From the NCBI RefSeq assembly GCF_039839785.1, contig NZ_JBDOQT010000002.1, positions 310,001-374,000 of the forward strand: a DNA stretch of 64,000 bases. The letters are read 5' to 3'. The translations under genes and the position numbers were made by a program. Source of the DNA: Pelagibius sp. CAU 1746. Lineage in GTDB: Bacteria; Pseudomonadota; Alphaproteobacteria; Kiloniellales; Kiloniellaceae. Below the pieces are notes generated by a model, which was given only the letters and a program-made list of their open reading frames with translations, was not told the DNA's origin and searched no databases. This document shows positions 1,124-24,301 of this stretch, piece by piece; position 1 is the first letter of the stretch, and each line of letters begins with the position of its first letter.

Positions 1124-1513
1124 GTCGGCGTGCCCGCACAACTCCACCCTTCCCCGCCTCCGAGGCGGAGGGAGAAAAAAGTCCTCATCTCTAGGGGCCC
1201 GGCTCAGAGAAGAACCGGTCCGGAAGGACTCATAAAACAGGGGAAGCGGCGGCGGCCGGTCCCTTTCGCGCCGCTGCTGAGTGCCGCGGGCCGCCCTCTC
1301 GGGATAAACCGCTGCAGCGAATTGCCCGGGGCGACAATGCGCGCCAAGCGTGCTACGCTTTAATCACGAAAATCCTGACGAACATACAACCGTAGTGCAT
1401 TTCGCCGCCATAAGAGGCTGCGTTGAAGCACCTTGGGAAAGGCACGGCACGGCGTCAGGACCGGCCGGAGCCAGAACGAAGCAGGTAGCTCAGAACGCAA
1501 GGGGAGATGCGTT
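1124..1513. other. Intergenic region before the RTX gene
   Basis: 390 bases without a convincing gene. It holds a GC-rich hairpin just after the dehydrogenase (listed separately) and a possible promoter for the RTX gene: GCGACA near 1331, 17 bases, then TACGCT at 1354. No RNA gene or attachment site was recognised. Confidence 0.4.
1146..1176. repeat. GC-rich hairpin, possible repeat member
   Basis: CCGCCTC and GAGGCGG are paired around a single base and flanked by CCTTCC and GGAGGGAG. It resembles the C-tract/G-tract intergenic repeats at 5.6, 7.4 and 21 kb but is shorter and unpaired. There is an A tract after it and no T tract on the + strand, so it is not a good + strand terminator. Confidence 0.4.
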
Positions 1514-4426
1514 ATGGGGAGGTTTCATTCAGGGGGATTCTTTCACTTTTTTCATTGGCCGAAATCCACCATCGATCTCAATCAGCCGGGAACCCGTGCC
1601 TTGGAGAAGGCATCCTGGCGCTTCTTCGAACCGGGTGATTCGCATTTCGAGGCGGTGGCCGATCTGATCTACGACCCGCCCGGCCACGACCTGCATCCCG
1701 AGGCGGCGGACTACATCTATCTCGCGCCCCTTTTCGGGTCGAAAGTCGACGGCTGGAGCGAGGATGGCGGGACACCGGTGAACGGCTTCATCCGGGGCGG
1801 CTTCGGCAAGGACACGATCAACGGCGGCGAGGGCGACGACACCCTGCTGGGCGGCGCAGGGCGCGACAAGCTGAACGGCGGCGAAGGCGACGACCTGCTC
1901 ATCGGCGGACAGGGCAAAGACAAGCTGCGCGGCGGCGACGGCGACGACACCCTGGACGGCGGCCTGGGCAAGGACCTGCTGGACGGCGGCGCGGGCGAAG
2001 ACACCGCGCTCTACCGGGGCAACTTCGAAGACCACAAGATCGACTGCACCGGAGACGGCTTCGTCGTCTCGACAACCGGCCATCACGCCTTCCTGAAGAA
2101 CAGCGACCGCCTGGTCGACGTCGAGAAGATCGAATTCCAGGGCGACGGCACGACGGTCTGGCTGGTGGCGGAGGGCCAATCGATCCAGGCCGCCGTCGAT
2201 GCCGCCGCGGAGGGCGACATCATCTTCATCGGCTGCGGCACCTTCGAGGAGTCCGTGAGCGTCGACAAGGCGCTGCGCTTCGTCGGCGCCGGCCCCGACG
2301 AGACCATCATCGCGCCGCCAAGCGGATCAGGCTTCGACCTGGTCGGGGATCTGGGAAGCGACGCGACCGTTTCCTTCGACGGCTTGAGCATCCGCGGCGG
2401 CGCCGACTATGGGATCGGCGTCAACGGCACGACCCTCGGCAGCCTCGAGATCCGCGACACTCACTTCGAGGAAAACGGCCGCAACGGCCTGGGCATCGTC
2501 AACGGCCTCAACCTCGGCGCCGTAGTGATCGCAGAGTCCAGCTTCGTCGAAAACGGCTTCCCCCATGCCTCCAGCGGCGACGGGGACCTGCTGTTCTATC
2601 AGTTCAACGGCGACGCCACCTTGAGCGGCCTGACCATCGACGGCGGCGACCGGCCGATCGGCGGCGGCAGCCACGATGCCGGCCACGCCGCCGAGAACGC
2701 CATCCAGTTCCGCAGCGATAGCGGCTCCCTGGGCAACGTCACCATCGAGGACGTCGAGATCGGCGGCACCTACGAGAAAGTCGGCATCGCCTTCTATAAT
2801 TATGACGACGTCGACGGCCTCTCCATGGAAGACGTCGAAATCGACGTGAATAGCGGCTGGAACCTGTCGCTCAACTTCGACGGCATCGCCGGCGACATCG
2901 ATATCTCCGGCTTCTCGGACCTGGACTACGACCAGGTCGCCGCGCTGCAGGGCGACCTCAACGAGGCCAACCGCCTCGTCGGCGGCGAGGAGGACGATTT
3001 CCTCAACGGCAAGGGCGGCGACGACATCCTGCAGGGGAATGACGGCGACGACACCCTGGACGGCAGCGGCGGAAACGATACGGGCGTCTATTCGGGGGAC
3101 CTCGCCGACTACGACATCAGCTTTGGCGCCGGCGGCGTGACCGTGGATGGCCCCGACGGCACCGACACCCTCATCGATGTCGAGAAGCTGCAGTTCCTGG
3201 GCGACGGCGAATGCCTGTGGTTGGTCCCCGCCGGCAGTTCGATCCAGGACGCCGTCGACGCGGCGGCGCCGGGCGATACCATCCTGGTCGGCCCCGGCAC
3301 CTTCAACGAGAACGTGACCATCGACAAGGCGGTCACGCTGCTGTCGGCCGAGGGGCGCGGCAGCACCACCATCCAGGGCAGCGAGACCGCCGGCAGCCTG
3401 GGCACCGTCATGGTGACCGGCAACACCGACGGCGTCGAGATCGGCGCCGACGGCCACGGCTTCACGCTCATCGGCTACGACACCGCCAACCCGGCCGTGG
3501 AGCACGCAGCTCTCTACTTCCGGGGGCCCCATGCCAATGCCAAGATCCTCGGCAACGACATCCGGGCCGAAGGCGAAGCGGGGATGCTGACCGAATACGG
3601 CCACGCCATCAGCGGCTTCGAGATTGCCGGCAACATCTTCTCCGGCCAGACCTTCGTCGGATCGGAAGTGGCCAATGCCGGCTTCGCGCAGCAGTTCACG
3701 GTGCACAACGTGCCGCGGGCGCTGCTGTACATCAGCGGCAACGGCAAGAGCGATATCGTCTTCCAGGACAACGAAGTCACCGGCACCGCCGGCGCCTTGA
3801 AAGAGGTGAGCGGCGATCCCTTCGGAAATATCCTGGTGACCATCGACGCGGAAAACTCCAGCATCACCGGGAACACCTTCTCCGGCTTCACCTACAACGC
3901 GGCCCTGCGGGTGCGCGAGAGCGGCACCGATATCGAGAACAACAGCTTCGACAACAGCGGCGGCGGCAACAGCACGGGAGTCTTCATGACCGTCGCCGAC
4001 GGCAGCTATGAAGAGAACGAGTTCACCGGGGGCGCCGGGCCGGATGTCTTCGTCGGCACCCCCGGCGACGACAGCCTGTCCGGTGGCGACGGCAACGACA
4101 TCCTGGTCGGGAGGGGCGGAGCCGACACACTGGTCGGCGGCGACGACAGCGACACCTTCGTCTACACCGGCACGGTCGATGCCGGCGACCTGATCGACGG
4201 TTTCGATGCGGCCGGCGCGGACTCCATCGATCTGGACCTGCTGCTCGACGAACTGGGCATCGCGACGGCCGACCGCGGCACGCGCGTCGACGTCGATCAA
4301 AGCGGCAGCGAGGGCACGGTCGCCGTCGATACCAACGGAGATTCCTCCTTCGACCTGCTGGTCGTCACCCTGGAAGACGTGACCGGAACGTTCGATCAGG
4401 GCGACGTGAACCTGGGGAGTCTCTGA
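1514..4426 (+). CDS. RTX calcium-binding protein with two beta-helix modules
   Basis: A 970-residue acidic extracellular protein, probably exported by a type I secretion system through an uncleaved C-terminal signal. After an N-terminal segment of about 90 residues come glycine/aspartate nonapeptides of the GGxGxDxLx type (DNA about 1797-2000). Two similar modules follow, each with a linker ending VEKIEF or VEKLQF and then a parallel beta-helix segment with SIQ(A/D)AVDAAA and KA(L/V)xxx strands (about 2160-2960 and 3210-4020). RTX repeats recur at about 2980-3075 and 4030-4150. The start at 1514 is chosen for AAGGGGAGA just upstream; an in-frame ATG at 1433 lacks such a site. No T1SS ABC/MFP genes lie nearby. 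A role as adhesin, polysaccharide-active enzyme or S-layer-like protein cannot be told apart. Confidence 0.85.
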   Translation: MGRFHSGGFFHFFHWPKSTIDLNQPGTRALEKASWRFFEPGDSHFEAVADLIYDPPGHDLHPEAADYIYLAPLFGSKVDGWSEDGGTPVNGFIRGGFGKDTINGGEGDDTLLGGAGRDKLNGGEGDDLLIGGQGKDKLRGGDGDDTLDGGLGKDLLDGGAGEDTALYRGNFEDHKIDCTGDGFVVSTTGHHAFLKNSDRLVDVEKIEFQGDGTTVWLVAEGQSIQAAVDAAAEGDIIFIGCGTFEESVSVDKALRFVGAGPDETIIAPPSGSGFDLVGDLGSDATVSFDGLSIRGGADYGIGVNGTTLGSLEIRDTHFEENGRNGLGIVNGLNLGAVVIAESSFVENGFPHASSGDGDLLFYQFNGDATLSGLTIDGGDRPIGGGSHDAGHAAENAIQFRSDSGSLGNVTIEDVEIGGTYEKVGIAFYNYDDVDGLSMEDVEIDVNSGWNLSLNFDGIAGDIDISGFSDLDYDQVAALQGDLNEANRLVGGEEDDFLNGKGGDDILQGNDGDDTLDGSGGNDTGVYSGDLADYDISFGAGGVTVDGPDGTDTLIDVEKLQFLGDGECLWLVPAGSSIQDAVDAAAPGDTILVGPGTFNENVTIDKAVTLLSAEGRGSTTIQGSETAGSLGTVMVTGNTDGVEIGADGHGFTLIGYDTANPAVEHAALYFRGPHANAKILGNDIRAEGEAGMLTEYGHAISGFEIAGNIFSGQTFVGSEVANAGFAQQFTVHNVPRALLYISGNGKSDIVFQDNEVTGTAGALKEVSGDPFGNILVTIDAENSSITGNTFSGFTYNAALRVRESGTDIENNSFDNSGGGNSTGVFMTVADGSYEENEFTGGAGPDVFVGTPGDDSLSGGDGNDILVGRGGADTLVGGDDSDTFVYTGTVDAGDLIDGFDAAGADSIDLDLLLDELGIATADRGTRVDVDQSGSEGTVAVDTNGDSSFDLLVVTLEDVTGTFDQGDVNLGSL

Positions 4427-7553: not shown

Positions 7554-7608
7554 CGTCTTGGCGCTCGACCTCTCCCACTGTCGCCTGTCAATGCACAAGA
7601 GAACCGTC

Positions 7609-8370
7609 ATGACCACCGCCGCCACGACCTGGACCGCCGATCAGCCGATCATCCAATGCCGCGACGTGCACAAGTCCTTCGGCCAACTGGAGGTGCTGAA
7701 GGGCATCTCCATGGACCTGATGAAGGGCGACGTGGTCTGCGTCATCGGGCCCTCGGGCTCCGGCAAGTCGACCTTCATCCGCTGCATCAACGCGCTGACG
7801 CCCATGGACCAAGGCTCCATCAAGGTCGAGGGCCAGGAGGTCAACGACCCCAAGCTCGACAAGCTGGCGCTGCGCCGCAAGGTCGGCATGGTGTTCCAGC
7901 AGTACAATCTCTTCCCGCACAAGACGGCGCTGGAGAACGTGATGATGGCGCCGATCAAGGTGCTGAAGGAGGACAGGCGCGAAGTCGAGGCGCGCGCCCG
8001 CGCGCTCATCAAGAAGGTGCGCCTGGAAGGCAAAGAGGACTCTTATCCCGGCGAGCTCTCCGGCGGCCAGCAGCAGCGCGTCGCCATCGCCCGCTCGCTG
8101 GCCATGCGCCCCGACGTGATGCTGTTCGACGAGGTGACCGCGGCCCTGGACCCCGAGACGGTGAAGGAGGTGCTGGTCACCATCCGCCAACTCGCCGAGG
8201 AAGGCATGACCTGTATCCTGGTCACCCACGAGATGGGCTTCGCCCGCGAGGTCGCCGGCCACATCTACTTCACCGACCGCGGGGTCATCGTCGAGCACGG
8301 CCCGCCCGCGACCTTCTTCACCGAAGCCAAGGACCCGCGGACGAAGGAGTTTTTGAGCCAGATTTTGTGA
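7609..8370 (+). CDS. Amino-acid ABC transporter ATP-binding protein (GlnQ type)
   Basis: A 253-residue cytoplasmic ATPase that powers the preceding importer. It has Walker A GPSGSGKST, Q-loop FQQYNLFPH, signature LSGGQQQRVAIARS, Walker B VMLFDEVTAALDPE and switch histidine LVTHEMGF, all typical of the polar amino-acid subfamily. ATG codons at 7591 and 7609 are both possible; I chose 7609 because AAGAGA precedes it. A frame open from 7447 is unlikely to be translated because it runs through the repeat block. It is the last gene before an AT-rich islet. Confidence 0.93.
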   Translation: MTTAATTWTADQPIIQCRDVHKSFGQLEVLKGISMDLMKGDVVCVIGPSGSGKSTFIRCINALTPMDQGSIKVEGQEVNDPKLDKLALRRKVGMVFQQYNLFPHKTALENVMMAPIKVLKEDRREVEARARALIKKVRLEGKEDSYPGELSGGQQQRVAIARSLAMRPDVMLFDEVTAALDPETVKEVLVTIRQLAEEGMTCILVTHEMGFAREVAGHIYFTDRGVIVEHGPPATFFTEAKDPRTKEFLSQIL

Positions 8371-10340
8371 AGGGGATCGCGTCTGCCTTTCGATCTCGAT
8401 ATAGCTATCAGCTTTGGTTGAAAGCAGCAGCAGAAGTCCGCACTCGATGCATCATAGTGCGTGAAGGTACTTGGCAGTCAGAATTTTACTTTAGGGATAT
8501 ACCGAGACCGATCCAATATGCGGGATGCACATAGAACTCCATTCCCTGCAACTCATACCCATCTGGAATTTCTGCATCATCAATGAACGACCATTGAACA
8601 ATAATGTTTGGCATCGGCTTTATTCCCACCACGCCAATTCGATACATGATGGTAAACCAGCAATCTTTGACCTCGTCACCTGCGACCGTGCTACTTATGT
8701 ACTTCCTACCAAGGACACATAAATCGTCCTCGAACATGTCACCTTGCTGAAGAGACTGCGCTATCGAGTTGAGGATTTCCTCCTCAGAAATGGCGTTATA
8801 CGAAAAATGTGACGCTTTACCCTTAAGCACCCTGATGTAGTTTCGTAGGCTTGGGTAGTCAGATCCCCACTCCTGTTCGAGGGAAGTGACGCGCTTTTGT
8901 GAGTAGGTCACTTCAGCACTGCGGATAATGTCGGCAGTGAATCGAGATCTGCCTTCGGCTTTTTCTATACATTCGTTTATGTACATGATGACTTCGCGCG
9001 GTCGACGCGAGGTCCTCTTAAAAATGTACCCGAGAGAATCTGTCTTCTCCATCTGGTTCTTCGGCATGATGTCTCGAAAACAAATACCTCCGCTAGTATA
9101 TTTCGATTTGAAGATTTCGTTGATTCTGCGATCCAGGACCTGCTCCAGCTCCTGTTCCGTCCATCGCAGTTTCAGGTATAGAGCTTCGTACTTTTCGTCC
9201 TGGAATCCAGAAGACATTGTCTTGCGCAAAACCCTCTGAAGAAGATCAGTGCGAATTGCCACAACCACCTTAACGTGGCGAATACTCTGAAAATTTCGAA
9301 CCGCTTCAATTAACGCCTTGATGAGCTTGTATCGAATTGAATCATCCACCCAATCCTCATCCAATCGATCGATTACTATGTAGTACCGCTGCTGAGGGTC
9401 TGTAAAAACTGAATCCGCTAAAAGCGATATAACCGAGTGCAGGTCCTTTATTTGAATCTTTTGGACTACTTCCTGAGCCCTTCTAACAATTTCGCCTTTT
9501 TGCTCACTAGTGAGGCTTTTAGCTGCATCAACACCGAAGCTGACTCCAGATAGTTGCCCCCCAACAGCCGCCTTAACATCGTTCTCCAATTTTGTCGTAA
9601 ATTCTTTCACTCTATATTCTGTCTCGGTCCAAAACTTGTCTCCCCACTCTCTCAAATAGGCGATAGCTTTTTCGCGGGCCATACTCTTCTTCGAGAAATT
9701 GGGTAAGATGTTGTCGAAAAAGTTATTCATCGTAGGCTCGCTACGAATGTCGAACTTACGACGGATTAATTCGACAGCCAAAACGTGATCCCAAAGCACT
9801 TTATAAAATAAATCTAGATGAACATCTATTTCTTCTAGGAATTTAATAATATTCGAGTTCGATAAATGATTTAACGAAAGTACCTCTGGCTGAAGCTCAA
9901 TTACATTTTCCTCAGATTTCTGGAGCTGTTTTAGAAGTGCGGTTTTTCCAATACCTGTCCGTCCCACCACTATCCGTCTTGGTTCCTGACAATCTCGCAA
10001 TTCCTCCAGAGCACCAGTATCAACGAAACAGGTGCTCAGAAAGCGTTCGTCAGACTCAGCGTCGGGTGCGCCAATTTTCCAGGTTCGACGAAATACAATG
10101 TTTGGATGCGTTGGCCTCTTTGTCATGCCACCCCTCAATACCACAAAACCTTGGGGCAATTTTGCCAACTTCTACTATCGATAGCAAAGGTCGATTGGAT
10201 TACCGACTTGCCCCCGCAGGTTGCACAGGAGGCGGTAAAACGCGGCCGCGCGTTCGACTAAGAACTAGGCATGACCGGCGATGGAGCCTTCTCCGATCAA
10301 TGCCTGTAATCTGCTTCCAAAGACTCAGACACAACAGGAA
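8371..10340. mobile_element. AT-rich islet (putatively acquired) carrying one ATPase gene
   Basis: The stretch is visibly richer in A/T than everything around it: runs such as AATTTAATAATATTCG appear inside the gene, while flanking genes are strongly GC-rich with GC-ending codons. It begins right after the ABC ATPase stop codon and ends near the start-less YdhR-like frame. No integrase, transposase, terminal repeat or tRNA attachment site was found. Boundaries are approximate and set by composition only. Confidence 0.55.
8486..10126 (-). CDS. Orphan P-loop ATPase, Sll1717/FunZ-like
   Basis: A 546-residue predicted STAND/ORC-like ATPase. Walker A is GRTGIGKTALLK (G55-T62), preceded by ELRDCQEPRRIVV, and Walker B is IVIDRLDEDW (acidic residues at 253-258). 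An arginine-bearing sensor-like segment, VVVAIRTDLL, follows, then a helical/winged C-terminal part. This layout matches proteins annotated as P-loop ATPase of the Sll1717 family or FunZ; the specific role is unknown to me, and a defence or DNA-associated role is inference only. The start at 10126 is chosen for GAGGGG just upstream rather than 10168. Its codon use is AT-rich, unlike its neighbours, suggesting horizontal transfer. It has no partner gene. Confidence 0.75.
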   Translation of the reverse strand: MTKRPTHPNIVFRRTWKIGAPDAESDERFLSTCFVDTGALEELRDCQEPRRIVVGRTGIGKTALLKQLQKSEENVIELQPEVLSLNHLSNSNIIKFLEEIDVHLDLFYKVLWDHVLAVELIRRKFDIRSEPTMNNFFDNILPNFSKKSMAREKAIAYLREWGDKFWTETEYRVKEFTTKLENDVKAAVGGQLSGVSFGVDAAKSLTSEQKGEIVRRAQEVVQKIQIKDLHSVISLLADSVFTDPQQRYYIVIDRLDEDWVDDSIRYKLIKALIEAVRNFQSIRHVKVVVAIRTDLLQRVLRKTMSSGFQDEKYEALYLKLRWTEQELEQVLDRRINEIFKSKYTSGGICFRDIMPKNQMEKTDSLGYIFKRTSRRPREVIMYINECIEKAEGRSRFTADIIRSAEVTYSQKRVTSLEQEWGSDYPSLRNYIRVLKGKASHFSYNAISEEEILNSIAQSLQQGDMFEDDLCVLGRKYISSTVAGDEVKDCWFTIMYRIGVVGIKPMPNIIVQWSFIDDAEIPDGYELQGMEFYVHPAYWIGLGISLK

Positions 10341-10657
10341 CCACCGCCATCGTTCAGTTCGAGCTGCCCGACGCGATGTCGCGCGAGGATGTCATGGCCG
10401 CCTTCACTACCAGCGTGGAGCAGTTGCGCGGCCACCCGGGGCTGATCCGCAAGTACTACCTCTACGACGAGGCGGCCGGCACGGCCGGCGGTGCCTATCT
10501 GTGGGAGAGCCGGGCGGCGGCCGAGGCGCTCTACACCGACGTGTGGCGCGAGACGGTCTCCGAACGCTACGGTGGCAGACCCACCATCACCTGGTTCGAG
10601 GCGCCTATCGTGCTGGACAACGCGGCCGGCGAAGTCGTCTCCGGCGCCGCCGGCTAG
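10310..10657 (+). pseudogene. YdhR-like monooxygenase gene lacking its start codon
   Basis: The open frame encodes a small dimeric alpha/beta-barrel protein of the YdhR/mono-oxygenase type: a first strand TAIVQFELP, helix MSREDVMAAF, then GLIRKYYLYDE, GGAYLWES and ITWFEAPIV. The frame is open only from 10310 after a TAA, and there is no ATG, GTG or TTG before the first beta strand. The first possible start, ATG at 10376, would delete that strand and give 93 residues. The 5' end therefore seems lost at the islet boundary. Translation from 10376 or from a non-standard codon remains possible. Confidence 0.6.
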
Positions 10658-17743: not shown

Positions 17744-20700
17744 TCAGTGGAAGTCCCGTGACTTGGGCATGGGGTTCACGTCGCGGGGATGGCGGCGCCC
17801 CGGACCTGAATGAGGGCTGGAGCGATGATCGCGGCCCGGGCGCTTCACCTCGTCGGCGCGGGCTTGAGCGCTTTCCAGCGCCGGGCCCGGCTTCAAGTCG
17901 CCGAGGCGCTCGGTCATGTCCTCCAGTTCCTCGGCCACCACGTGAATCACCAGCCCTTCGCGCTGCAGCTTGCCGCGCACGGCCAGCAGGCTCGATTTCA
18001 TGACGGTGGCGCGGTAGCGCTCGAAGACGGCGGGCCAGATGATGGCATTGGCGATGCCGGTCTCGTCCTCCAGGGTGGCGAAGATGACGCCGCTGGCGCT
18101 GCCGGGGCGCTGACGCACCAGCACCAGCCCGGCGACCCGCACGGTGCTGCCGGGCTTCAGCTCCGACAGCCGCATGGCCTCGACGACGCCCTCCGCCGCC
18201 AGACTGTCGCGCAGAAAGGCCAGAGGGTGCGCCTTCAGCGAGAGGCGCAGCGCCATGTAGTCGTCGACGACGTGTTCGCTGAGCGCCATCCGCGGCAAGG
18301 ATACTTCCGGCTCGGCGCCGCGGTCCTCGATGCCGGCGGCGGCGAAGAGCGGTAGGGGGGCGCTCTTCTTGCGCTCGCCCGGCAGGCGCTTCACCGCCCA
18401 GAGCGCCTCGCGCCGCGCCAGCCCCTGCGAACGGTAGGCGTCGGCCCGTGCAAGGACCTCCAGGGCCAGCGGCCTCAGCCCGGCGCGGCGCCAGATCGAC
18501 AGCGGGTCGGGATAGCCCGTATCCCGTGCGGCGACCAGGGCGCGGGCATCCTCTTCGGCCAGACCTTTCACCTGGCGCAGGCCGAGGCGCAGTGCATAAC
18601 CCATCCCGCCCGACTCGGGTTCAAGGGTGCAGTCCCAGTCGCTGGCGTTCACGTCGGGCGCGCGGATCTCGACGCCATGCTCGCGGGCGTCGCGGATGAG
18701 TTGTGCCGGAGCGTAGAAGCCCATGGGCTGGCTGTTCAGCAGGGCGGCGGCGAAGACCGCCGGATAGTGGTGCTTCATCCAGGCGGAGACGTAGACCAGC
18801 AGCGCGAAGCTGGCGGCATGGCTTTCCGGAAAGCCATAGGTTCCGAAACCCTCGATCTGCTTGAAGCAGCGCTCGGCGAATCCCTCGTCGTAGCCCCGCG
18901 CGGCCATGCCCCGGATGAACTTGTCGCGGAAGGCGTGGATGTTGCCGAGACGCTTGAAGGTGGCCATGGCGCGGCGCAGGCGGTCGGCCTCGGCCGGCGT
19001 GAAGCCGGCGGCGACGATGGCGATCTGCATGGCCTGCTCCTGAAACAGCGGCACGCCGAGGGTCTTCTGCAGGACCCGGCGCAGGTCTTCCGAGGGATAG
19101 TCCACCGGCTCCCTGCCGTCGCGCCGGCGCAGGTAGGGATGCACCATGTCGCCCTGGATCGGCCCCGGACGCACGATGGCCACCTCGATGACCAGGTCGT
19201 AGAAGACCTTCGGCTTGAGGCGCGGCAGCATGGACATCTGGGCGCGGCTTTCCACCTGGAAGACGCCGATGGAATCGGCGCGGCTCAGCATTTCATAGAC
19301 CGCCGGGTCCTCCGCCGGCACCGAGGCCAGGGTGAAGTCCTTGCCGTAGTGGCCGCGCAGCAGCGCGAAGCCCTTGCGCAGGCAGGTCAGCATGCCGAGC
19401 GCCAGAATGTCGACCTTCAGAATCCCCAGAGCGTCGAGGTCGTCCTTATCCCACTCGATGACCGTGCGGTCCTCCATGGCCGCGTTCTCGATGGGCACCA
19501 CCTCGCAAAGCGGGTTCCGGGTCATGACGAAGCCGCCTACGTGCTGGGAGAGGTGGCGCGGAAAGCCGATCAGCATGTGGGTCAGCGCCAGGGCCTGCGC
19601 GAGGCGGCGGTCGCCGGGGTCGAGGCCCAGCTCGCGCACCGAGTTCTCCTCCACCCCCTCCTGGCTCCAGCCCCAGATGGCGCCGGCCAGGGCGGCGATG
19701 GTGTCGGCGGAGAGCCCCATGACCTTGCCGACCTCGCGCATCGCGCCGCGCGAGCGGTAGCAGATGACGGTGGCGGTCAGCGCCGTGCGCTCGCGCCCGT
19801 ACTTGGCGTAGATGTACTGCATGACCTCTTCGCGGCGCTCGTGCTCGAAATCCACGTCGATGTCCGGAGGCTCGTTGCGCTCGGCGGAGACGAAGCGCTC
19901 GAACAGCAGGTCCATGCGCGCCGGGTCGACCTCGGTGATGCCCAGGCAGAAGCAGACCGCCGAGTTGGCGGCCGAGCCGCGACCCTGGCAGAGGATGTCC
20001 TGCGAACGGGCGAAGCGCACCACGTCCTCCACCGTCAGGAAGTAGGGCGCATAGTCGAGCTGGCCGATGAGCGCCAGCTCGTGGCGCACCGCCTGCTTGA
20101 CGGTCTCCGGCACACCGCCGGGATAACGATCGGGCGGGTAACGCCGCGCCGCGCCCTGCCAGGTGAGATGTTCAAGCTCTTCCTGCGGCGTGCGGCCTTC
20201 GGTCGTCAGTTCCTCCGGGTAGTCGTGGCGCAGCTCTTCCAGGGAGAAACTGCAGCGCCGCGCGATCTCCAGCGTGTTGGCCAGGGCCTGCGGGACGCCG
20301 CGGAAGAGATGCGCCATGTCCTCCGGCGCCTTCAGATAACACTCGGCGTTGGCCAGCAGGCGGTAGCCCGCCGTGTCGATGGTGCAGTGCTCGCGGATGC
20401 AGGTAACGACATCGAGCAGCGGCTTGCGCTCGGCGCTGTGCATCCTCACATCGTTGCAGGCGGCGAGGCCGACCCCGTTTTCCTCTGCCAGCCGCGCCAG
20501 GGCCGCAAGGCGCCGGCGGTCGTCGCCCCGGTAGAGCGCGCGGGCACCCAGGAAGATCTCGCCGGAAAAAGCCTGGGACAGACTGCGCAGCGCGCCTTCG
20601 AAATTTCCGTCAGGCAGCACCACGAAGACCTGGCCGTCGCCGTGGTCGATCACCTCCTCGAGAGAAAAGATACAGTCCCCCTTTTCTGCGCGGCGCTTGC

Positions 20701-21007
20701 CCAGGGTGAGCAGGCGGCAGAGCCGCGCGTAGGCGGCGCGATCCTTGGGGAAGCAGAGAATCTCGGGGCCGTCTCCCTTCTCTGCCTGGGGCACCAGGCG
20801 TGCGCCGACCAGCAGGGGAATGCCGACCTCCTTCGCCGCCACGTGCGCGCGCACCGCCCCGGCCAGGGAATTGCGGTCGGCGATGGCCACCGCCGGCAAC
20901 CCCAGCGCCGCCGCCGCCATCACCATCTCCTCCGGATGCGAGCCGGACCGCAGGAAGGAGTAGTTGCTGGCGACCTCCAAGGGGACGTAGAGGGGCGTGG
21001 GAGTCAT
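17744..21007 (-). CDS. dnaE2: Error-prone DNA polymerase DnaE2
   Basis: A 1087-residue C-family polymerase, the translesion subunit of the ImuA-ImuB-DnaE2 mutasome. It opens with a PHP domain (YVPLEVASNYSFLRSGSHPEE) and shows DIDVDFEHERREEVMQY, the NTP-binding/catalytic region, and PGPIQGDMVHPYLRRR. The C-terminal OB domain (VRVAGLVLVRQRPGSA) and the tail ending PKSRDFH are typical of DnaE2 and separate it from replicative DnaE1. It is downstream of imuA and imuB, but a DUF559 gene with two repeat blocks intervenes, which may weaken co-transcription from the SOS promoter. Confidence 0.96.
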   Translation of the reverse strand: MTPTPLYVPLEVASNYSFLRSGSHPEEMVMAAAALGLPAVAIADRNSLAGAVRAHVAAKEVGIPLLVGARLVPQAEKGDGPEILCFPKDRAAYARLCRLLTLGKRRAEKGDCIFSLEEVIDHGDGQVFVVLPDGNFEGALRSLSQAFSGEIFLGARALYRGDDRRRLAALARLAEENGVGLAACNDVRMHSAERKPLLDVVTCIREHCTIDTAGYRLLANAECYLKAPEDMAHLFRGVPQALANTLEIARRCSFSLEELRHDYPEELTTEGRTPQEELEHLTWQGAARRYPPDRYPGGVPETVKQAVRHELALIGQLDYAPYFLTVEDVVRFARSQDILCQGRGSAANSAVCFCLGITEVDPARMDLLFERFVSAERNEPPDIDVDFEHERREEVMQYIYAKYGRERTALTATVICYRSRGAMREVGKVMGLSADTIAALAGAIWGWSQEGVEENSVRELGLDPGDRRLAQALALTHMLIGFPRHLSQHVGGFVMTRNPLCEVVPIENAAMEDRTVIEWDKDDLDALGILKVDILALGMLTCLRKGFALLRGHYGKDFTLASVPAEDPAVYEMLSRADSIGVFQVESRAQMSMLPRLKPKVFYDLVIEVAIVRPGPIQGDMVHPYLRRRDGREPVDYPSEDLRRVLQKTLGVPLFQEQAMQIAIVAAGFTPAEADRLRRAMATFKRLGNIHAFRDKFIRGMAARGYDEGFAERCFKQIEGFGTYGFPESHAASFALLVYVSAWMKHHYPAVFAAALLNSQPMGFYAPAQLIRDAREHGVEIRAPDVNASDWDCTLEPESGGMGYALRLGLRQVKGLAEEDARALVAARDTGYPDPLSIWRRAGLRPLALEVLARADAYRSQGLARREALWAVKRLPGERKKSAPLPLFAAAGIEDRGAEPEVSLPRMALSEHVVDDYMALRLSLKAHPLAFLRDSLAAEGVVEAMRLSELKPGSTVRVAGLVLVRQRPGSASGVIFATLEDETGIANAIIWPAVFERYRATVMKSSLLAVRGKLQREGLVIHVVAEELEDMTERLGDLKPGPALESAQARADEVKRPGRDHRSSPHSGPGRRHPRDVNPMPKSRDFH

Positions 21008-21025
21008 GCTCTCCCCCCAGACAGC

Positions 21026-21138
21026 TCTCCCCTCCCCCCTTGCGGGGGAGGGTTAGGGTGGGGGGTATGGTGAAGCTTGCGCAGGAACACCGAGAGTCAC
21101 CCCCTCCCCATCCCTCCCCCATCAAGGGGGAGGGGGCT
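21026..21138. repeat. Paired hyper-palindromic intergenic repeat (block D)
   Basis: One element at 21026-21068 (CCCTCCCCCTTGCGGGGG, then TTAGGGTGGGGGG) and one at 21092-21138 (GAGAGTCACCCCCTCCCC, then CATCAAGG and a G tract). The second overlaps the 3' end of the DUF559 gene and supplies its last codons. Both have near-identical direct copies in block E. Confidence 0.88.
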
Positions 21139-21480
21139 CTTTTTATGAAGATCTGAAGCGGCTGCCGCGCGGATGACCTCCAACACGCCCTCCAGATTCT
21201 CGAAGATCTCATCGTTCCAGAACCTCAGGACTCTGAATCCCCGGTCTTCGAGCCACTGGTTGCGTGCCGCATCCTCCACCTCGGACTCGGTATGCTGGCC
21301 ACCATCAAGTTCGGCTACGATGCGCGCCTCGTAGCAGGCGAAATCGACGATGAAGCGGCCGAGCGGAACCTGGCGCCGAAAGCGCAGGCCGTCGAGTTGC
21401 CGCCGACGCAAGACCGACCAGAGACGCTGTTCCGCCTCCGTCATATTGCCGCGTAGCTGCCGTGCGTTCTTCGATGCCAT
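21097..21480 (-). CDS. DUF559 endonuclease-like protein
   Basis: A 127-residue protein of the DUF559 family, related to very-short-patch-repair (Vsr)-type nucleases. The pattern MTEAEQRLWSVLR, RFRRQVPLGRFIVDFAC (D46), VAELDGGQH (E57, D59, H63) and GFRVLRFWNDEI fits a PD-(D/E)xK-like active site. The last 15 or so residues (SPLPLDGGGMGRG) come from the adjoining repeat and are not part of the fold. The start at 21480 is preferred; 21516 lies in the upstream repeat. It sits inside the imuB-dnaE2 interval and is bracketed by repeats. DNA cleavage is inferred from the family. Confidence 0.85.
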   Translation of the reverse strand: MASKNARQLRGNMTEAEQRLWSVLRRRQLDGLRFRRQVPLGRFIVDFACYEARIVAELDGGQHTESEVEDAARNQWLEDRGFRVLRFWNDEIFENLEGVLEVIRAAAASDLHKKSPLPLDGGGMGRG

Positions 21481-21507
21481 GGCTCGAACCCGGTTCTGCA
21501 AAGTGCG

Positions 21508-21657
21508 GAGAGTCACCCCCTCCCCAACCCTCCCCCATCAAGGGGGAGGGGGTTTCTCAAGGGATCAGCGAATGACCGAGTCTTTTCCCTCTACACATCC
21601 CCTCCCGCTTTTGGTTTCCCCTCCCCCCTTGTGGGGGAGGGCTAGGGTGGGGGGTAT
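21508..21657. repeat. Paired hyper-palindromic intergenic repeat (block E)
   Basis: An element at 21508-21553 repeats the 45 bases at 21092-21138 with about one mismatch. An element at 21616-21657 repeats that at 21026-21068 with about two mismatches. The two blocks flank the DUF559 gene in the order II-I-gene-I-II. Confidence 0.88.
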
Positions 21658-21687
21658 GGTTCCGCGTCTCGCTGCCCGTCTCCCCCC

Positions 21688-23445
21688 TCACCCGAACAGC
21701 CCGTGCAGGAACCAGCGGCCGGCGGCGCGGTAGAGCCAGTAGCGGCGGCCGTCTTCGTCCTCGACGCGGAAATAGTCGCGTGGCGGGGCATCGCTTTCTT
21801 CCGGCTCGGTCCGCCACCACTCGCCGAGCAGGCGTTCCGGGCCCTCGGCGCGCACCACCTGGTGCAGCACGCGGCGCCAACGGAACTGCGCCGGCGGGTA
21901 GTCGGGCAGCAGGGAGACCGCGTCCACCGGCTCCGGGCGCGCCAGCAGGCGCAGGGGACGCAGCTTCGGATGCGGCGTCTTCTGCCAGTCGTCGTTCGCT
22001 TTGCCCCCTGCTTTGCCCCCCGCTTTCTTCGGGGGCTTCTCCGGAGTTTTCTCTGGGGCTCGTTCACCGCCCGCCGGGTCCCCTACAGGAGAGGCCAGCG
22101 CGAAGGCGCGCTCCGGCAGGTGGCTTTCGCGCAGACGCGGGGCGCGCACGGCCTCCAGCCCCAGGCGGCTGCCCAGGCGGTCGACCAGCTCGGGCAGGGT
22201 CTGCGCGCCGTCCGCCGTGTTCGCCGCCCGCTCCTCCACCCGGCGCAGCTCGCCTTGTTGCGCAGCCAGAGTTGCGGTCAGCGTCGCGCCCAGGGTCATG
22301 ACCTCGATGCCGAAGCCGGGGTCGATCTGCGGCAGCTTCTCGGTGAAGAGACGGCGCAGGTGTTTGGCATCGCGGCTCGGCCGGCTGGCGCCGAGGGAGA
22401 GGCGCTGCAGGCTGCCGTCGCTGCGATAGGCGGTCAGCTCGAGCTGCCTCGCGCCGCGCCCGGCCCGCGCCAGTTCGCGGCAGAGATGGTCGAGCAGCAG
22501 CCCTACGGCGCGGGCGATATCCTCGGGGTCGCTCAAAGGCTCGGCGAAGATCCGGCGGGTGAGATGAGCCGCCGGCGGCTGGCGCGGCGACAGCGCCTCG
22601 GCCTCCGTCCCCACGGCCTGACCCAGACGGCGCACCGCCAGCGTGCCGAAACGCGGTGTCATCACCGACGGCGTGAGGTTATAGAGATCCTCGACGCGGC
22701 GCAGCCCGAGGCGGTCCATCAGCTCCACCGTCGCCGGAGGCAGGCGCAGGGCCGCCGGCGGCAGTGGCGCGAGGGCGGCGCGCTGGCGCCCGGGCAGCAC
22801 CACCACGCAAGGATGCCCGGCCGAGGTGGCGAAGCGCGCCATGGCCCAGGCGCAGCCGATGGTGTCGGCCAGCGCCGCGCGGGCGGTGTAGCCCAAGCCG
22901 GCAAGGCGCGCCTGCAGGTTCTCCAGCAGCGCATGCTCGCCACCGAAGAGGTGGCAGCAGCCGGAGACGTCGAGCAGCACGCCGGCGCCGCCGCCCGCAC
23001 CTCGGCCCTCGTCTTCCCCGGTCGAGTCCGGCCCCGTCAAATCGGGAGCGGCCCAGGGTGTGTAGCGCGCGCACCAGGCGGCGAGCGCGGCGAGGGCGCG
23101 GGCGTCGGCCGCCGGGTCGTGGGGGACGGTGATGAGGCCAGGCAGCAGGGCGCGCGCCTCGGCCAGCGGCAGGCCGGGCTCGAGGCCGGCGGCTTCCGCC
23201 GGCAGGTTCACCGCGGCGAGGCTGAGGCGCCCAGCATCGTCGCTGACCAGCGCCAGCGGCTGCTGCGCCTCGGCCTCTTCCCTCTCAGGCGGATCTTTTT
23301 CAGCCCGCGTGCCGGAGGGTGGCGATCTCCGCGTCCCGCGCGGGCGAACGTCCGGCCGGCTGCTCTGCCGGCTGTTCTGGGCCCTCGCCCGGAACCAGCG
23401 GTCGGTCGCGAAGCGCGGAAGCCAGAGCGAAACCACACGCCGCAT
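21688..23445 (-). CDS. imuB: ImuB, Y-family polymerase-like mutasome subunit
   Basis: A 585-residue Y-family polymerase homologue that bridges DnaE2 to the beta clamp in SOS mutagenesis. The N-terminus MRRVVSLWLPRFATDRW and the helix-hairpin-helix region MDRLGLRRVEDLYNL are characteristic. ImuB proteins normally lack the catalytic carboxylates, and I see no canonical DxD palm motif here. The start at 23445 is chosen from the conserved N-terminus, giving a 146-base overlap with imuA. A low-complexity insertion (RPRGTRRSPPSGTRAE) follows residue 20. Confidence 0.93.
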   Translation of the reverse strand: MRRVVSLWLPRFATDRWFRARAQNSRQSSRPDVRPRGTRRSPPSGTRAEKDPPEREEAEAQQPLALVSDDAGRLSLAAVNLPAEAAGLEPGLPLAEARALLPGLITVPHDPAADARALAALAAWCARYTPWAAPDLTGPDSTGEDEGRGAGGGAGVLLDVSGCCHLFGGEHALLENLQARLAGLGYTARAALADTIGCAWAMARFATSAGHPCVVVLPGRQRAALAPLPPAALRLPPATVELMDRLGLRRVEDLYNLTPSVMTPRFGTLAVRRLGQAVGTEAEALSPRQPPAAHLTRRIFAEPLSDPEDIARAVGLLLDHLCRELARAGRGARQLELTAYRSDGSLQRLSLGASRPSRDAKHLRRLFTEKLPQIDPGFGIEVMTLGATLTATLAAQQGELRRVEERAANTADGAQTLPELVDRLGSRLGLEAVRAPRLRESHLPERAFALASPVGDPAGGERAPEKTPEKPPKKAGGKAGGKANDDWQKTPHPKLRPLRLLARPEPVDAVSLLPDYPPAQFRWRRVLHQVVRAEGPERLLGEWWRTEPEESDAPPRDYFRVEDEDGRRYWLYRAAGRWFLHGLFG

Positions 23446-24301
23446 CGTCCCACTCCACATGCCAGGACCCCGGCGCCGCCCCGCGGCAGCGCAGGAGGTC
23501 GAGCCGCCAGCGCGGGCGGCCGATGAATGTTGCCTCTTGTTCGTCCCCCGAGACTGCCCCGGACACTGCCGGCGTGACGCGCCAGCGGCTGAGCGCGGCG
23601 CTGGCCGCGCGGCCCTGGCGCAGCGGGCGGAAGCGGCGGTGAAGGGCAAAGGCGGTAACGCCGCCCGTCGCGGTCAGGCTCGCTTCGGCGGCGAGCTGCA
23701 GGCGGCGCCCGGCGAGGCGGTCGAGACCTTCGACCTCCCCCACCACGGCGGCGAGGCGGCGGCAGCGCAGCCCCTCCTCCATGGCCCAGAGCACCTCGGC
23801 ATCGGACTTGGCGTTCACCAGCAGGAAGCGCCCGGGGTCGAGCCCCTGGCCCACCAGCGCCGGCGGATAGAGATCGCCCTGGCGCGACACCCAGAGAATT
23901 TTGCCGCTGCCGGGAAAGGCCTTTTCCAGGCGCGCCAGCAGCGCCAGGCAGAAGCCGAGGGTGACGCCGTCGTCCCACTCCGCGCGCTCGCCCTCGATCT
24001 CGTGCAGCGCGCCGAGCGGCAGCCCGCCGCCGGGCAGCGCCGCGTCGAGGGCTTCCAGGCCCAGCGGCGCGACGGAGCGCTGGCGTCCGGCGAGCGAGGT
24101 TGCATGAGCCCCCTGCTCGATCCGCCGCACCTGATCGCGCAGGGCGGCGAGGCCGAGAACCTTCCCGTCCTGTTCTACGGAGACCCCAGCAGGGGACTCG
24201 GAAAAGCCCGCCGCGCCGCCGCGCAGGTCCCCGAGCCCGCCCCCGGCGGCCCCGGAAACCCGGCCTTTTCCTTGCTCTCGCGCGCGCAGAAGCAGCGACA
24301 T
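23300..24301 (-). CDS. imuA: ImuA, RecA-like SOS mutagenesis protein
   Basis: A 333-residue RecA/SulA-like protein, the first gene of the imuA-imuB-dnaE2 cassette. The segment LDAALPGGGLPLGALHEI, then KILWVSRQGDLYPPAL and LRCRRLAAVVGEVE correspond to the degenerate RecA core. Its C-terminal tail is proline/arginine-rich and overlaps the imuB start by about 146 bases in another frame. A LexA box lies 37 bases upstream of the start, placing the cassette under SOS control. Confidence 0.92.
   Translation of the reverse strand: MSLLLRAREQGKGRVSGAAGGGLGDLRGGAAGFSESPAGVSVEQDGKVLGLAALRDQVRRIEQGAHATSLAGRQRSVAPLGLEALDAALPGGGLPLGALHEIEGERAEWDDGVTLGFCLALLARLEKAFPGSGKILWVSRQGDLYPPALVGQGLDPGRFLLVNAKSDAEVLWAMEEGLRCRRLAAVVGEVEGLDRLAGRRLQLAAEASLTATGGVTAFALHRRFRPLRQGRAASAALSRWRVTPAVSGAVSGDEQEATFIGRPRWRLDLLRCRGAAPGSWHVEWDDAACGFALASALRDRPLVPGEGPEQPAEQPAGRSPARDAEIATLRHAG

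Follow-up and report, generated by a model that had tools for sequence, protein, structure and literature searches.

P-loop ATPases of the Sll1717 family (NCBIfam model NF047389) have been named by NCBI with no assigned function found, and are common on plasmids of E. coli and Klebsiella. KAP NTPases, another group of P-loop proteins, carry transmembrane helices in the P-loop domain, and BrxC (BREX) and RdrA (RADAR) are AAA core ATPases of defence systems. DS-41, which comes from DefensePredictor, is included among the 42 systems validated in E. coli (PMC13092281). The SIR2–HerA pair is known as Nezha, an experimentally supported anti-phage system that depletes NAD (PMC11559045). The gene described here is a member of the first of these families and lies alone in an AT-rich islet between GC-rich neighbouring genes.

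A composition scan of the window (the whole 64-kb stretch of DNA analysed) identifies this islet as its sole AT-rich stretch, with the GC content over 1.5 kb falling to a minimum of 0.444 at about position 8401, compared with a window mean of 0.664 (s.d. 0.041) and a lowest 1.5-kb value of 0.623 outside the islet. Its content is one intact gene on the minus strand, encoding the ATPase, with a GC3 of 0.48 against 0.87–0.95 in eight neighbours. No integrase, transposase or tRNA gene was found near the ATPase gene, no tRNA gene within the 64-kb window and no flanking repeats of nine or more bases at the islet, while promoter and terminator scans gave about chance level. The ten flanking proteins either are unmatched or have everyday roles in metabolism, transport, regulation or repair. 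The AT-rich islet, the deviant codon use of its gene and the absence of a nearby integrase, all claimed in the first-pass annotation, are therefore real. So is the damaged small gene described there, which is a YdhR-family open reading frame (PF08803) that has lost its start codon. The first two ydhR codons, including the ATG, have been replaced, and the frame opens at a stop codon (10307–10309) and offers no ATG, GTG or TTG before 10376, so that the damaged ydhR looks like a casualty of the islet insertion. Elsewhere in the window, a DnaE-type polymerase III alpha protein and an ImuB-like Y-family protein are encoded close together on the minus strand (17747–23649), a pair that looks like an SOS mutagenesis cassette, and a large protein with RTX calcium-binding repeats is encoded on the plus strand (1433–4426).

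Table 1. Features of the islet and its flanks (window coordinates), with fused relatives from other loci in the last row.
Feature	Position	Strand	Basis or remark
ABC transporter ATP-binding gene, left flank, conserved uptake operon	7597..8370	+	95% protein identity in G007
AT-rich islet	8371..10342		Composition; boundaries set against locus L038 of G007
Sll1717-family P-loop ATPase gene, 546 aa	8486..10126	-	NF047389 whole-profile match; start by homologue alignment and Shine-Dalgarno
Helical region at the C-terminus, closing with two strands; possibly a winged helix	8528..8785	-	AlphaFold model
RTxxRPR[DE] motif, RTSRRPREVIMYIN	8975..9016	-	RPR invariant in 18/18 rows
Walker B region, YIVIDRLDEDWVDD	9341..9382	-	I, D, L, D, W invariant in 16 homologues
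Walker A, GRTGIGKT	9941..9964	-	Near-invariant in 16 homologues
Shine-Dalgarno-like GAGGGG before ATG 10126	10131..10136	-	Sequence
YdhR-like gene without start codon, right flank	10343..10657	+	PF08803 34.2 bits; G007 copy 79% identical, with ATG
Candidate effector fusions: Sll1717 ATPases with N-terminal nucleoside-deoxyribosyltransferase-like domain	L066 8844-11168, L067 8642-10981, L094, L096, L097		

The longest open reading frame of the ATPase gene starts at a TTG codon (10168) and would give 560 residues; in the homologues the start lies close to ATG 10126 rather than at this TTG, and because a GAGGGG sequence also precedes that ATG, the 546-residue product is the better reading. The protein, which is single copy in its genome, aligns with NF047389 over the entire profile (1–454 of 454; 226.6 bits, cut-off 75), in agreement with the Sll1717 assignment made from the translation. 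The GRTGIGKT and IVIDRLDEDW motifs noted at the same time are present, and 16 homologues share them with no more than conservative substitutions. These homologues vary little or not at all at the Walker A and B residues, R306 and D308 and the RPR motif; the Walker motifs are retained at 31–44% identity, and the RTxxRPR[DE] motif is common to outer members of the Sll1717 family too. Since these putative catalytic residues have been kept, their conservation argues for a working enzyme.

The proposed likeness to KAP proteins found no support. The Pfam KAP profile (PF07693) scores 18.5 bits, below its gathering cut-off of 20, and the ATPase contains no membrane segment (highest 19-residue hydropathy 1.22); nSTAND1 (20.7 bits), nSTAND3 (18.1 bits) and AAA_16 (24.8 bits) likewise fall below their gathering cut-offs. 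No full-length match was found among the PADLOC-DB defence-protein models, the partial and weak matches being to PDC-M28C (24.4 bits) and AriA (21.3 bits). Searches of solved structures by sequence returned no convincing match, and no effector domain was recognised in the window ATPase. Papers on FunZ, the other name given in the first-pass annotation, are unrelated. In the literature searched, no paper naming 'Sll1717' or the E. coli plasmid homologue WP_000026497 was found, nor was a test of a member of this subfamily.

In the AlphaFold model of the ATPase (pLDDT 82.5) the P-loop core is accompanied by a long helical stretch and, at the C-terminus, by a helix–strand region whose secondary structure suggests a possible winged helix. 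A fold search of solved structures gave BrxC, RdrA and archaeal AAA ATPases as the best matches, followed by Orc/Cdc6, and a viral fold library gave no match below 1e-3. Because the matches to solved structures are weak (E about 1e-3 to 3e-2, TM 0.2–0.3), they would support only a shared AAA core.

The same site can be compared in a sister species (G007), in which the ABC gene, the YdhR gene and a histidine kinase gene (78% identical) follow one another in the order seen in the window. Between the ABC and YdhR genes of G007 lie about 3.5 kb of different but likewise AT-rich DNA (GC about 0.50), whose minus strand codes for three proteins, namely SIR2, HerA and a small one of 108 residues. PADLOC recognizes the first two (SIR2 1e-54, HerA 7e-133). 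The 108-residue product, which follows the Nezha-type pair in this stretch (L038, G007:C8, 4366–7540), is probably a membrane protein, is unmatched in PADLOC and is possibly a third component. Identity between the window and G007 stops at the TGA codon of the ABC gene (8370) and resumes at the third ydhR codon (10343). In this comparison of two species, the junction therefore behaves as a variable cargo site, with SIR2–HerA placed between the same core genes.

No close homologue of the G007 SIR2 was found in the window genome or in six other congeners, and the ATPase has no close homologue at full length in seven congeners, G007 among them; a distant Sll1717-family member in G001 lies at a different place. 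In three congeners (G001, G002 and G005) the ABC operon is followed by different genes and YdhR is not a neighbour, and in a fourth (G004) the histidine kinase alone is kept, in different surroundings. Comparison with relatives, suggested as a check in the first-pass annotation, yielded alternative cargo but no empty ABC–ydhR junction among the congeners compared. The full-length family match, the single copy, the lack of a congeneric homologue, the deviant composition and the alternative cargo together bear out the family assignment and horizontal acquisition. Contrary to both grounds for refutation given in the first-pass annotation, the gene is not at this site in relatives, and its homologues do not resemble housekeeping genes. 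Given that no integrase, tRNA, flanking repeat or target duplication is seen, the simplest guess is that such islets are probably swapped by recombination within the core genes on either side. The islet itself is an ordinary kind of accessory gene islet, with an interesting gene.

Full-length homologues of the subfamily (31–44% identity) occur in six of the 398 genomes of a phylum sample, the window genome included, and the wider Sll1717 family in 30 of them. Most are clearly richer in AT than their surroundings (e.g. GC 0.39 versus about 0.65 and 0.40 versus about 0.65), and they are usually solitary, between unrelated genes. Homologues are also present in five IMG/VR viral contigs, among phage structural or packaging genes or near CI/CII-type genes, and one genomic copy adjoins prophage CI/CII-type genes; annotated phages gave two distant matches only (22% identity). 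Plasmid records with a homologue number 233, mostly from Klebsiella and E. coli. Matches were found in 30 of 5426 complete E. coli genomes, all plasmid-borne (31 of 31 places) and seven as fragments only. In the tree, copies from plasmids, prophages and chromosomes are intermingled, and the window protein groups with moderate support (88/92) with sequences from viral contigs and from other classes.

Among the 69 neighbours of 15 homologues, genes of mobile elements and ordinary genes predominate (integrases, recombinases, CI/CII, RepB); frames in GC-rich neighbours were called by a simple codon-position heuristic that may miss genes. The search for defence islands suggested in the first-pass annotation thus gave PifA, adjoining one plasmid copy, as the one clear defence gene, and guilt by association is weak. 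On plasmid pENKO-1 (L080 2996–6934) the PifA-like protein is encoded about 3 kb from the ATPase homologue and flanked by unknown genes of 365 and 193 residues. AT-rich genes adjoin homologues at L028 9176–9970 (264 aa), L086 6922–8154 (410 aa) and L092 10179–13145 (988 aa) and are possibly co-acquired accessory genes; the 264- and 410-residue proteins have no Pfam or PADLOC match. In five members of the wider family, the ATPase is preceded by an N-terminal nucleoside 2-deoxyribosyltransferase-like domain, called from weak sub-cut-off Pfam matches in three and by eye in two, an arrangement suggestive of an effector coupled to a sensor-switch; this domain is missing from the window subfamily. 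Other wider-family members (L113, L114, L116 and L117; ~875–893 aa) have a long N-terminal extension, which in L113 matches ParA/CbiA-like NTPases.

Because of the same-site exchange with SIR2–HerA, carriage on prophages and plasmids, the wider-family fusions and a weak kinship with DS-41, the favoured reading, held with somewhat better than even confidence, is that the islet holds a horizontally acquired lone gene directed against phages or mobile elements, at a site where the cargo varies. Also in its favour are the foreign composition, the patchy occurrence of the subfamily, the intermingled tree, the retained Walker motifs and the origin of BrxC and RdrA, the best fold matches, in defence systems. 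The solitary defence gene proposed in the first-pass annotation thus gains circumstantial support, tempered by the rarity of defence neighbours, the weakness of the fold matches, the lack of an effector domain, a same-site comparison based on one sister species with no empty site found, and a DS-41 score far below the cut-off. Given the sensor-switch and effector arrangement suggested by the fusions, together with the AAA core, the ATPase would act as a switch that senses an invader and blocks it either directly or through a host partner. More tentatively, with the chances somewhat against it, the solitary Sll1717 subfamily as a whole could be a single-protein anti-phage system, widespread on enterobacterial plasmids and prophages, in which a STAND/ORC-Cdc6-like ATPase is both sensor and effector and the effector-fused relatives are sister architectures.

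The same carriage could instead reflect service to the carrier, with an ORC/Cdc6-like ATPase for replication, partition or repair of a plasmid or prophage having become stranded in the chromosome. The presence of homologues on plasmids and phages, the weak ORC/Cdc6 fold matches, records that annotate a homologue as 'DNA repair protein' and the rep/sop genes close to some of the plasmid-borne homologues are consistent with such an origin. It is a live rival but a rather unlikely one, as the homologues are solitary at many unrelated chromosomal sites with no replication genes, are not conserved on their carriers (the low E. coli frequency given above, with remnants on others) and, at the window site, the ATPase alternates with a defence system. 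Chance acquisition of a prophage or plasmid accessory gene for some other trait, such as stress response, lysogeny control or carrier-specific exclusion, would agree with where homologues sit in prophage contigs, in accessory-type places beside CI/CII genes or amid structural genes, but is also judged improbable: the homologues are spread broadly, on carriers and in hosts that are unrelated, which favours a general function, and exclusion as the trait would overlap with defence. That the ATPase is a decaying, non-functional foreign gene, as its foreign composition and damaged neighbour might imply, is very doubtful, since the reading frame is full-length with a Shine-Dalgarno sequence and all conserved catalytic residues, and the damage lies in the host ydhR. 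An ordinary host gene with unusual codon use, a reading for which no support was found, is already contradicted by the GC3 contrast, the lack of a full-length close homologue in seven congeners and the different cargo in the sister species.

If the gene is indeed a solitary defence gene, it would constitute a one-gene ATPase system with no recognizable effector, and it would then have to be explained how an ATPase on its own halts a phage; the same-site SIR2–HerA exchange and the prophage carriage make a defence role testable with a single gene. Among known groups, the window ATPase is closest to the Sll1717 family, matching its model in full at three times the curated cut-off with the same Walker and RPRD motifs and no difference found, although the model name is without a function. 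Homology to DS-41 is detectable over residues 36–461 (E 3e-14) through the next-best NCBIfam model, NF053860 (DS41_1 anti-phage protein), but its 52.8 bits compare with an equivalog cut-off of 370, and the ATPase is not a member. Similarity to KAP NTPases and nSTAND families is a weak P-loop similarity, and BrxC and RdrA, which act in multi-protein systems, are the best solved-structure matches at 11–14% identity and TM-scores of 0.2–0.3. Nezha in G007 occupies the same junction on the same strand with a similar GC content (0.49–0.51 versus 0.45 in the ATPase islet), but is a two-gene NADase–helicase complex whose proteins are unrelated to the ATPase.
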